Of a stretch of DNA of 64,000 nt, positions 2,183 through 4,919 are shown piece after piece (position 1 is the first letter of the stretch; every line of letters begins with the position of its first letter). The DNA comes from Terriglobia bacterium. Lineage in GTDB: Bacteria; Acidobacteriota; Terriglobia; Acidiferrales; UBA7541. Both the position numbers and the translations under genes were made by a program. The stretch spans positions 1 through 64,000 of the forward strand of contig JAIQFB010000010.1 of assembly GCA_020073485.1 (NCBI GenBank), given 5' to 3'. The notes under the pieces were generated by a model that was not told the DNA's origin, did no database searches, and worked only from the letters and a program-made list of their open reading frames with translations.

Positions 2183-2502
2183 CCTGTACATCCGAGGGGC
2201 ACATTAGAGGCGGTCTTGATGTGAATGTGATGAATTGAAGATGGATGCGTCCATAGTGACGAATGAGTCTGTTGGGCATGGTGCGGAAGAAAAGTCAAAA
2301 CCCCGACCCTTTAAAACCAAAGGAGTCGGCCACCCGGAAAAGCTGTACCGGTCACTCAGCGCTAACGAATTGGCGTGGCATCATCTAATCGTGAAAATTC
2401 GTTGACAGGAAAATACGGGGAACGTGGATCAACCGTCGGGCAGTTCAGTTTCTTCTTAAATCGCTCGCATCTTAGTGGAAGCTTCATCAAGAACTGCGAG
2501 TG
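2183..2502. other. Intergenic region holding the left arm of an inverted repeat
   Basis: About 320 bases between convergent genes. The only recognisable structure is the 27-nt arm at 2328-2354, which is repeated in inverted orientation at 3415-3441 on the far side of the protease gene. I see no gene here. Confidence 0.5.
2328..2354 (+). repeat. Left arm of inverted repeat flanking the protease gene
   Basis: The arm reads GGCCACCCGGAAA, six variable bases, then ACCGGTCA. The same 13-mer and 8-mer, with the same six-base spacing, occur in inverted orientation at 3415-3441. In total 22 of 27 positions match. The two arms bracket only the serine protease gene and its promoter region. Confidence 0.8.
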
Positions 2503-3315
2503 TTATTTGATTGAATCGTAGATTTCCATAAGTGCTGAGGCTTTCCAAACTCTGCCGACTTCGCTGGCGGAATCTATATCACCTGCATAGACACCTAAGA
2601 ATTTATCAGCTGAACCAATTACGAGGTTACCGTTTTCGTCTCTGTATGAACCGATCCTCCGGGCATAGACGGGAGAACCGGACATGCCGGGACGACTCGT
2701 AGTATCAACGAGGAATTGGGCTGAGCTCTGGTAATTGACGTCCGGATCACTGGCAACGCTTCCTGCTTTCCAAATGGGAAGTCCGGCGGAACTTACATTG
2801 CCGAAAGGAAACCCTACGATACTTACCTCGCTCGCAGGAATTAGTTCGATGGATTTGTTGCGTAATTCAAGATCAAGCGGATAGAACTGCACGTCATCAG
2901 TACTTTCGAGAGGAAGCATGACGAGATCAACTCGTCGCCCAAGGGCGTGTTCGATCCAACGCGGCAAGTGGGTAGTAGGATCGTATAGATCTTCAGTAAC
3001 CCAATGCCATTCGCCAAGCTTCTTATTTGTATTTTGTAATATTCTGATTTGATCCGGAGCTCGTCCTTTAGCATCGAGGACAAGATTATTATCGGGGCGA
3101 CGGCCTGCAATGACGTGCCAGTTGGTCACTAGATAATATTTCGAGCCTTTTTGAACAACAAAACCCGTTGCTGTACCAAGATCTAATTTGTTCGACCAGA
3201 GCACGAGCAACAAAGAAGTGACGCTGAACTGGTCAATTCTGGTCTTGTTCTGAGGAAATGCCTGCGTGGCGAGAACGAATAAGATAAGAGCCGCAGAGGT
3301 TATCTTGAAAAGCAT
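2503..3315 (-). CDS. Exported trypsin-like serine protease
   Basis: A 270-residue protein with an N-terminal signal sequence of about 21 residues ending near QAFPQ, so the enzyme is probably periplasmic or secreted. The chymotrypsin-fold triad can be read directly: His67 in NWHVIAG, Asp130 in RRVDLVMLPLE and Ser212 in RPGMSGSPVY. There is no PDZ domain, so it is shorter than DegP/HtrA and resembles stand-alone trypsin-like peptidases. The ATG is preceded by AAGAAGGTG at good spacing. Codon use looks more A/T-rich than the neighbouring pil genes, and the gene sits between inverted-repeat arms at 2328 and 3415, both suggesting acquisition into the pil locus. Its substrate is unknown. Confidence 0.85.
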   Translation of the reverse strand: MLFKITSAALILFVLATQAFPQNKTRIDQFSVTSLLLVLWSNKLDLGTATGFVVQKGSKYYLVTNWHVIAGRRPDNNLVLDAKGRAPDQIRILQNTNKKLGEWHWVTEDLYDPTTHLPRWIEHALGRRVDLVMLPLESTDDVQFYPLDLELRNKSIELIPASEVSIVGFPFGNVSSAGLPIWKAGSVASDPDVNYQSSAQFLVDTTSRPGMSGSPVYARRIGSYRDENGNLVIGSADKFLGVYAGDIDSASEVGRVWKASALMEIYDSIK

Positions 3316-3414
3316 AGTTACACCTTCTTATACAGAAATCCTACACTATGGCTCACGAAGGCGCTAGCCTCGGATTGAAGGGCGAGGAGGGGAAATGGCG
3401 AGGGACGCACCCTT

Positions 3415-3441
3415 TGACCGGTCTTGACTTTCCGGGTGGCC
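3415..3441 (-). repeat. Right arm of inverted repeat flanking the protease gene
   Basis: Reads TGACCGGT, six variable bases, then TTTCCGGGTGGCC: the inverted copy of the arm at 2328-2354. It runs directly into the hairpin at 3440-3468. Confidence 0.8.
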
Positions 3442-3468
3442 CACCCTTCGCGACTCTCGAAGGGTGGG
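3440..3468. repeat. Perfect 11-bp extragenic hairpin
   Basis: CCCACCCTTCG and CGAAGGGTGGG pair perfectly across a 7-nt loop. The element lies between the protease gene and the 3' end of pilR. It has the form of a repeated extragenic palindrome rather than a classical terminator, as no T-run follows on either strand. Confidence 0.75.
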
Positions 3469-3527
3469 TTGGTTTAGACACACGACCAAATCCGAATTTT
3501 CACTAGGCCAGACCAAACACAACACCT

Positions 3528-4919
3528 CTAGCGGATATTATATTTCTTGGAGTAATGCCGGAACGACCGGTAGCTCATCTTCAGCAATTCCGCGGCACGC
3601 GTGCCAACCCCGTCGCAGGTTTTCAGCGCCGTGAGAATATAAGCCTTCTCCAAATCCTGGATGTGCTTTTCGAGATCGATGCCGGATTCCGGAATGTGAG
3701 CGGAACCATTTTCGAGGCCGGCGCTTTCCAGCGATTCCCGGTGTCCCGAGTTTCGGATTTTTTCCGGGAGCACGGCGGGAGAGATCATCGGCCCGGTTTC
3801 GAGCGCGACCGAGCGCTCCATCGTGTTTTCCAGTTCGCGGACGTTTCCGGGCCACTCGTAGGCTTCGAGCAGGCTCATGGCCTCGGGGCTTATGCCCTCG
3901 ACCGGCTTTTCCATGGTCTTGCGGAAGCGCTCCAGGAACGAGCGCGCCAGCAGCGCAATATCTTCCCTGCGCTCTCGCAAGGCGGGCAAATGAATGGGGA
4001 TCACGCTCAAGCGGTAAAATAAATCTTCGCGGAACTCTCCGGCGGCGATGGCTTTCTCCAGATCCTTATTCGTCGCGGTGATCACGCGGACATCGATATC
4101 GGTCTCTTCATTCGATCCAACGGGGCGCACCTTGCCTTCCTGCAACACGCGGAAAAGCTTCACCTGCATGGTCTGGCTCATGTTTCCGATTTCGTCCAGA
4201 AACAGCGTGCCTCCGTTGGCGGCCTTAAAGAGGCCTTCGCGGTTTTCATTCGCGCCCGTAAACGCGCCCTTGACGTAGCCGAACAGTTCGGATTCCAGCA
4301 GCGTTTCGGGAAACGCACCGCAATTGATGGTGATAAACGGCTTCAGGCTGCGCGAGCTATTTTCATGAATTGCACGCGCCACCAGTTCCTTTCCGGTGCC
4401 GGTCTCGCCGGTGATCAGCACGCGGCTGGTCTGCGGCGCGATGGTCATGATCATGTCGAAGACGGCGCGCATGCCGGCGCTGTGGCCGATGATGTTGTCG
4501 AGGCCGGTGAGGCGGCGCAACTCGCGGCGCAGGTAGCCGGCTTCGTCCTTCAGTTTCAGGGTTTCGTCCACCTGGCGGACGGCGCGGCGCAACTGGTCGA
4601 CCAGTTCATGGTCCTTGATGACGTAGCGGTCCGCGCCCGAATTGATCGCGGCGATGGCGGTTTCGAGCGTCGGCAATCCGGTAATCAGCAGGAAATAACT
4701 GAAAGGCGAAATTTCCTTGCAGAATTGCAGCAGCTCGACGCCGGTGGTGTCCGGCATGCGGATATCGGAAATCACGATGTCGAAAATGCTGGATTCAAAT
4801 TTCCGCCGGGCCGTTTCCCCGTTCATGGCCACTTCGACGCGATGGCCTTCCTTGCGAAAAGTAATCTCCAGCAGTTCGCAGATGGAGCGTTCATCGTCGA
4901 CAATCAGAATGTGAGCCAT
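3528..4919 (-). CDS. pilR: Sigma-54 dependent response regulator PilR
   Basis: An NtrC-family activator of 463 residues. The receiver domain (about 1-120) carries the acidic pair DD at 8-9 and the phosphoacceptor Asp52 in ISDIRMPD. The AAA+ domain has Walker A GETGTGKE at 171-178 and the sigma-54 contact loop GAFTGA at 218-223. A Fis-type helix-turn-helix closes the C-terminus (TRAAELLKMSYRSFRHY). It follows pilS on the same strand, separated by a 207-nt gap that contains a palindromic repeat. PilR proteins activate pilA from sigma-54 promoters, and such a promoter is present at 317-333. Other NtrC-type roles are possible, but position favours PilR. Confidence 0.88.
   Translation of the reverse strand: MAHILIVDDERSICELLEITFRKEGHRVEVAMNGETARRKFESSIFDIVISDIRMPDTTGVELLQFCKEISPFSYFLLITGLPTLETAIAAINSGADRYVIKDHELVDQLRRAVRQVDETLKLKDEAGYLRRELRRLTGLDNIIGHSAGMRAVFDMIMTIAPQTSRVLITGETGTGKELVARAIHENSSRSLKPFITINCGAFPETLLESELFGYVKGAFTGANENREGLFKAANGGTLFLDEIGNMSQTMQVKLFRVLQEGKVRPVGSNEETDIDVRVITATNKDLEKAIAAGEFREDLFYRLSVIPIHLPALRERREDIALLARSFLERFRKTMEKPVEGISPEAMSLLEAYEWPGNVRELENTMERSVALETGPMISPAVLPEKIRNSGHRESLESAGLENGSAHIPESGIDLEKHIQDLEKAYILTALKTCDGVGTRAAELLKMSYRSFRHYSKKYNIR

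Follow-up and report, generated by a model that had tools for sequence, protein, structure and literature searches.

Positions 2221-3480 of the window, i.e., of the whole 64,000-nt stretch of DNA that was analysed, rather probably represent the decayed remains of a cargo cassette built from a REP-associated tyrosine transposase (RAYT) and its REP elements, comparable to a mobile insertion cassette, and we infer that this unit was once mobile. The layout recurs around other single exported-protein genes in related genomes, suggesting a type of small gene cassette not described so far.

The inverted arms belong to a family of REP elements

The initial annotation had described two 27-nt arms at 2328-2354 (-) and 3415-3441 (+) sharing a 13-mer and an 8-mer in inverted orientation. 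This arm pair is real: the 13-mer TTTCCGGGTGGCC is located at 2328-2340 (-) and 3429-3441 (+), the 8-mer, read from the sequence, at 2347-2354 and 3415-3422, and the arms are 80% complementary across the 30 nt of 2325-2354 and 3415-3444. In the 5.05-Mb genome there are five exact copies of the 13-mer, namely the window pair, a second inverted pair on contig C28 and a single copy on C43, while the backwards-read control pattern gave 0 copies. For the right 27-nt arm with <=3 mismatches 0.00 copies are expected in shuffled windows; this search retrieved the right arm alone, as the left arm differs from it by more than three mismatches and hence lies outside the search.

Both arms are part of longer repeats. 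An alignment places them in a REP family with a conserved head that ends in GTGG and is followed by a hairpin, each arm forming the head of a REP hairpin that extends beyond it. The left arm consists of the REP head and leader sequence, the right arm of the upstream part and the head of the right REP, and it continues into a hairpin at 3440-3468. With the covariance model R1 the left REP, which includes the left-arm 13-mer, was delimited to 2301-2343 (-; 54.5 bits) and the right REP to 3426-3470 (+; 60.9 bits), both with the head pointing inwards and the hairpin outwards. The hairpin of the family covaries, with double-sided changes in six of 11 pairs (0/500 shuffles). With the model 47 copies were detected genome-wide at E<=1, and REP copies are present in 32 of the 37 genomes searched, the own genome included. 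An Rfam search for RNA families returned one chance match far under threshold.

The two REPs of the window are of different subtypes, leader type on the left and plain type on the right, and their identity exceeds that of random REP pairs of the genome by 0.015, i.e., they are not specially alike. The view that the arms form a matched pair of ends private to one cassette had to be abandoned: they are instead two members of a REP family with 41 genome matches at E<=0.1. The ends of the window unit are decayed and its boundary is not sharp.

A truncated RAYT gene on the left side

The left arm lies in a leader that precedes a truncated RAYT gene. Window positions 2221-2414 align over 194 nt to the start and leader of an intact RAYT (L006 1773-1970) with a score of 208, while none of 200 shuffles scored above 38. 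By tblastn, RAYT residues 1-41 match at 2288-2166 with 51% identity (E 1e-9), and the match on the DNA level stops at 2221; the remnant thus covers codon 1 to about codon 20-40. On the basis of both alignments the relic of the RAYT 5' end, comprising the region of the start codon and some 20 codons, was assigned to 2221-2288 (-). The leader itself, a promoter-like stretch with the leader REP and without the outermost half-REP, extends over 2287-2421 (-) (nhmmer with a 19-leader model, model positions 75-206, E 4.5e-10).

The intact RAYT is encoded in the same genome on contig C28 (L006 1301-1840), where it matches the NCBIfam family REP_Tyr_transpos NF047646 above the cut-off (2.5e-31). It adjoins the left copy of the C28 13-mer pair and its leader carries the window 13-mer, so that a transposase that could act in trans, as anticipated earlier, is indeed present. 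This RAYT is flanked by inverted REPs at 162731(+) and 163354(-), and the sample described below contains another 14 outward pairs of RAYT size. In the window no inverted REPs flank the RAYT; the 3' REP is lost.

The enclosed gene encodes an exported serine protease

The bracket encloses just one gene, as the initial annotation had stated, located at 2503-3315 (-) and encoding an exported trypsin-like serine protease of 270 aa (Pfam Trypsin_2, 4.6e-10). The protein has a hydrophobic N-terminus, and its triad H67, D130 and S212 is invariant among five protease homologues; the protease is probably exported and catalytically active. The gene is also more A/T-rich than its surroundings, with a GC content of 0.470 and a GC3 of 0.454 compared to 0.57-0.61 and 0.72-0.82 in five neighbours. 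Residues 27-245 match the PADLOC phage defence candidate PDC-S45 (7.1e-24), which has been named as a PADLOC match in a prophage (PMC12429752). An antiphage role of the protease is only a lead, drawn from the PADLOC match.

Among 60 relatives, one has a full-length homologue of the protease and a second has a partial homologue. In a scan of 84,980 species genomes, which reaches close relatives only, two distant relatives with 36% and 30% identity were detected, the nearest being a Bradyrhizobium protein with 36%. Homologues on plasmids are many and distant, the best with 44.6%; distant PDC-S45-like proteases were observed in 105 records of plasmids, including 69 from Klebsiella. A phage origin of the protease was rejected, as it matches only two records of one Shigella phage over 55% of its length.

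The insertion site in related genomes

The protease block is flanked on the right by a PilR-like sigma-54 response regulator (3528-4919, -) and on the left by a PMT_2-type glycosyltransferase (839-2182, +), which also adjoins pilR in six of the relatives examined (G005, G004, G002, G017, G023 and G009). In G001 and G003 the sequence reads as pilA directly adjacent to pilR. The usual pilR-pilA adjacency is broken in the window, as had been noted, but chiefly by the glycosyltransferase, which the six relatives share. A second copy of the glycosyltransferase gene with 40% identity and an in-frame TAG was observed elsewhere in the own genome (G000 C21:36578-37846).

In the closest relative, G005 (PilR 96%, glycosyltransferase 93% identical), pilR and the glycosyltransferase gene are separated by a gap of 202 nt that lacks the protease, and the gaps of five other relatives are short as well (27-173 nt between tblastn ends). 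The protease block was thus added to this lineage, and none of these six relatives carries the protease at this place, with or without the repeats. The site in G005 contains neither protease nor leader, but a probable decayed right REP, the score of which was reached in 0/1000 shuffles, and a different BIME. This apparent decayed copy implies that the right REP may predate the protease. The other REP pair in the G005 gap (C172, L094) is GTAG-tagged, indicating that more than one family of palindromic elements is drawn to this spot.

A survey of facing REP pairs

The surveyed sample comprised 101 stretches, about 1.06 Mb, namely 80 stretches round strong REP matches of relatives together with RAYT loci and own loci. 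The REP regions in G001, G005, G007, G008, G003 and G017 were taken from the best covariance-model matches listed, ignoring orientation. The RAYT and own-genome loci were fetched for their content, and tests were run with and without them where relevant. REPs were located with a home-made scanner, which at a score of 20 gave 133 matches in the first 625 kb and one in the reversed sequence. At a threshold of 16 it yielded 265 REPs in 188 clusters. Facing pairs with a spacing of 250-2500 nt numbered 70, of which 24 were head-to-head, 28 in the same orientation and 18 tail-to-tail, the last including 15 RAYT-sized ones. The p-values given below are exploratory, as several tests were run on one sample and with this home-made scanner.

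The head-to-head pairs, which enclose segments of 0.3-1.8 kb, differ from the same-orientation pairs in three respects. Firstly, exactly one REP is of leader type in 20/24 of them, two in 0/24 and none in 4/24, compared to one leader in 5/28 of the same-orientation pairs. Label shuffling reached the count of 20 in 0/20,000 trials, and after removal of the own genome and of the loci fetched for RAYT or protease, 11/14 pairs still had one leader, which was reached by 6/20,000 shuffles. Secondly, with the ascertained loci removed, the head-to-head segments are AT-richer than their flanks, with a mean GC difference of -0.052 (n=19) versus +0.005 for same-orientation segments (n=28; difference p=1.6e-4), and this result stands after trimming 150 nt per end. 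An inherent GC polarity of REPs as the cause was rejected, since none was found in 42 lone REPs. Thirdly, a hydrophobic N-terminus characterises the longest ORF of 21/23 head-to-head segments, compared to 6/23 same-orientation ones. A control with random segments (73/429) turned out to be unfair for this comparison because genes are cut in it, and the same-orientation segments and the neighbours of lone REPs were used instead. Exported-type genes account for 17/19 genes in head-to-head segments and for 36/74 genes beside lone REPs, where no bias towards one side is seen (head 16/36, tail 20/38).

Outward-facing REP pairs (BIMEs) automatically create head-to-head neighbours. Among pairs of single REPs outside the ascertained loci, 7 are head-to-head, 3 tail-to-tail (RAYT-sized gaps aside) and 12 in the same orientation, i.e., there is no head-to-head excess. 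The REPs of a head-to-head bracket are not specially alike: their mean excess identity over random REPs of the same genome is -0.017 (n=24), compared to +0.054 for RAYT-flanking pairs.

A model of the RAYT leader, which consists of a half-REP, about 90 nt and a REP, was built from 19 examples and detected 54 leader-type copies in the sample. An intact RAYT follows 20 of these, four, including the one in the window, are followed by a relic, and 30 have no RAYT. The latter, e.g., L256 1363-1515 and L282 5968-6117, resemble a miniature element.

Other brackets and their cargo

Other genes enclosed by paired REPs, which the initial annotation had suggested to look for, are thus present in the own genome and in others. 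The fullest copies, on C28 of the own genome, C9 and C16 of G020 and C28 of G005, have the order plain REP, cargo, leader, RAYT, plain REP, and their two outer REPs share one orientation. This is the geometry required by a single-strand transposase of the IS200/IS605 type.

Two further brackets contain proteases. The full-length homologue of G020, which belongs to another genus and is 29-32% identical, is located at an unrelated site between REP(-) and REP(+), 967 nt apart with heads inwards and without a leader-type end; this bracket was fetched via the protease and not via the REPs. A third PDC-S45-type protease, on C4 of G005, lies in a bracket found through REPs alone, beside a leader that keeps the RAYT start codon. 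At this locus (L255 6073-6384) tandem leaders adjoin the exported protease gene, the first retaining the RAYT start codon ahead of the second. All three bracketed proteases look exported and match PDC-S45 (7e-24, 1.6e-32 and 1.2e-20). As their mutual identity is 24-32% and the window protease is nearest to the Bradyrhizobium protein, their sequences look like separate captures. A protease model, built from the three, gave no other strong match and one weak match outside the brackets of the sampled stretches; as the three are themselves contained in the model, this result carries little information on further proteases. According to ORF strands, the protease points to the leader in the window and on G005 C4, while most other cargo points away from it.

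Among the four leaderless brackets, three are the longest (1.7-1.8 kb) and have near-normal GC; these three may be due to chance. The fourth is the G020 protease bracket. A pilin-like ORF was observed just past the REP beside this second protease (G020 C17, L030 2762-3427), and the window protease is located in a pil locus too, possibly by coincidence. An empty-site comparison via this pilin-like neighbour gave one 67% match in 12 other genomes, at a contig start. Among the brackets no cargo was found to recur at a second site with the same ends. Between different brackets only the ends (leader sequence) match, the exception being G003, where C49 carries a 70% paralogue of the cargo on C15. 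On contig C40 of the own genome a tRNA-like gene has a second copy of its 3' end beyond a REP-bracketed membrane-protein gene (L179 1854-1917 and about 3160), and the sequence left of the duplicated tRNA end is unlike that of relatives, as in a tRNA-targeted island. The duplication indicates that another route of gene gain exists at this place.

Origin of the bracket

The order in the window, from right to left, is a plain REP, a foreign protease gene, a RAYT leader with its REP and a RAYT cut after about 20 codons. As in a mobile insertion cassette, a passenger without transposase is thus located between mobile-element ends, the leader REP and the plain REP. Seen as the two ends of one element, one leader and one plain REP are combined in most head-to-head brackets (20/24), as they are in a RAYT unit, but the heads point inwards instead of outwards and the pairs resemble random REPs. 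A RAYT may have moved the protease gene as part of such a unit in cis or in trans, cutting, as a single-strand transposase of the IS200/IS605 kind would, at two same-strand hairpins, i.e., the outer REPs; subsequent loss of most of the RAYT and of its 3' REP would have left a stranded cassette in the window.

The initial idea of a small mobile cassette moved in trans therefore gains from the lineage-specific addition, the intact RAYT and the other bracketed genes, whereas its private matched ends are not borne out. It had also been argued that a common solitary extragenic palindrome would speak against a cassette. This applies in part, since the arms do belong to a dispersed REP family, but the survey makes the cassette more likely and not less. 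Against it we count that the bracket REPs are no more alike than random ones, that the right REP may be older than the protease, that head-to-head pairs of single REPs are not in excess, that the G020 protease bracket lacks a leader-type end, that no cargo recurs at two sites between identical ends, that the C40 site adjoins a duplicated tRNA end and that no mobility event was observed.

A serious rival, which we nevertheless consider less probable, assumes no cassette: the protease would have reached a variable spot by another route, with REP/RAYT elements landing independently on either side, so that the bracket would be a by-product. REP/RAYT elements insert between genes. In favour of this rival, the arms have a random-like similarity, the right REP in G005 is probably older, the GTAG-tagged pair in the G005 interval marks the spot as attractive for such elements, and the C40 bracket adjoins a duplicated tRNA end; REPs were moreover reported to gather near rayt genes (PMC2817692). 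On the other hand, orientation, one-leader asymmetry, AT-richness and exported bias coincide in head-to-head and not in same-orientation segments, and lone REPs have neither a GC polarity nor neighbours as often exported.

It is improbable that REPs heading towards a gene were kept by selection as terminators or supercoiling insulators for exported- or membrane-protein genes. The exported bias of bracketed genes would fit such a function, and gyrase is reported to bind some REPs of other bacteria (PMC6006769), but the foreign composition, the one-leader rule and the RAYT relic of the window would be left unexplained, and lone REPs have no head-side bias. A classic IS-end cassette, on whose matched terminal inverted repeats a DDE transposase would act in trans, is what the initial wording suggests. 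It would account for two inverted arms round one gene but is very improbable and was rejected: both arms are members of a hairpin REP family that comes with its RAYT, they are REPs of different subtypes, and they turn their conserved parts inwards and their hairpins outwards.

Extending the cassette reading beyond the window, it is conceivable, though at present tentative, that the RAYTs of this family of bacteria, besides making REPs, are vectors that move single genes, mostly for exported or membrane proteins, as units of plain REP, cargo, leader, RAYT and plain REP by single-strand transfer between same-strand REPs; the RAYT-less cassettes would be derived from these units, and exported PDC-S45-type proteases would have been captured at least three times.

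Relation to known systems and biological meaning

The described RAYT/REP systems, i.e., REPtrons, BIMEs and REPINs (Nunvar 2010, PMC2817692; Quentin 2018, PMC6006769), share with the elements found here a REP-class HuH/Y1 transposase, inverted flanking REPs, dispersed copies and BIME pairs, as well as a GT[AG]G-like foot at the hairpin base, which here is GTGG. Unlike in the systems as described there, a single foreign gene is repeatedly located between the RAYT leader and an extra plain REP. In the parts of these two papers considered here, REPs and BIMEs are the mobilised parts, REPtrons apparently do not move as units, and cargo is not mentioned (PMC2817692, PMC6006769). The TIRYT or TIRtron of Acidobacteria (Di Nocera 2013, PMC3733652) likewise involves, by its description, tyrosine transposases of this kind, with longer inverted repeats, and one Koribacter repeat belongs to a repeated family; in contrast to the present elements no cargo is described in the portion of that paper considered. 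In the RAYT/TnpAREP literature, covered by title and abstract opening and mostly without subscription journals, no description of cargo genes in RAYT elements was found.

In mobile insertion cassettes a passenger gene is located between the ends of an element whose transposase is encoded elsewhere, the ends being those of DDE insertion sequences. The likeness to the window unit lies in the passenger gene between mobile-element ends; here these are REPs of a HuH enzyme, one of them keeping the transposase leader, and mobilisation in trans is putative.

How RAYTs serve their hosts is still open; in the accounts considered they are described as stable, with REPs and BIMEs moving rather than genes (PMC2817692, PMC6006769). 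If the cassette reading is true, RAYTs would, by virtue of the stereotyped cargo layout, take part in the spreading of genes, and the layout would explain how some lone genes for exported proteins entered the genomes of this group.
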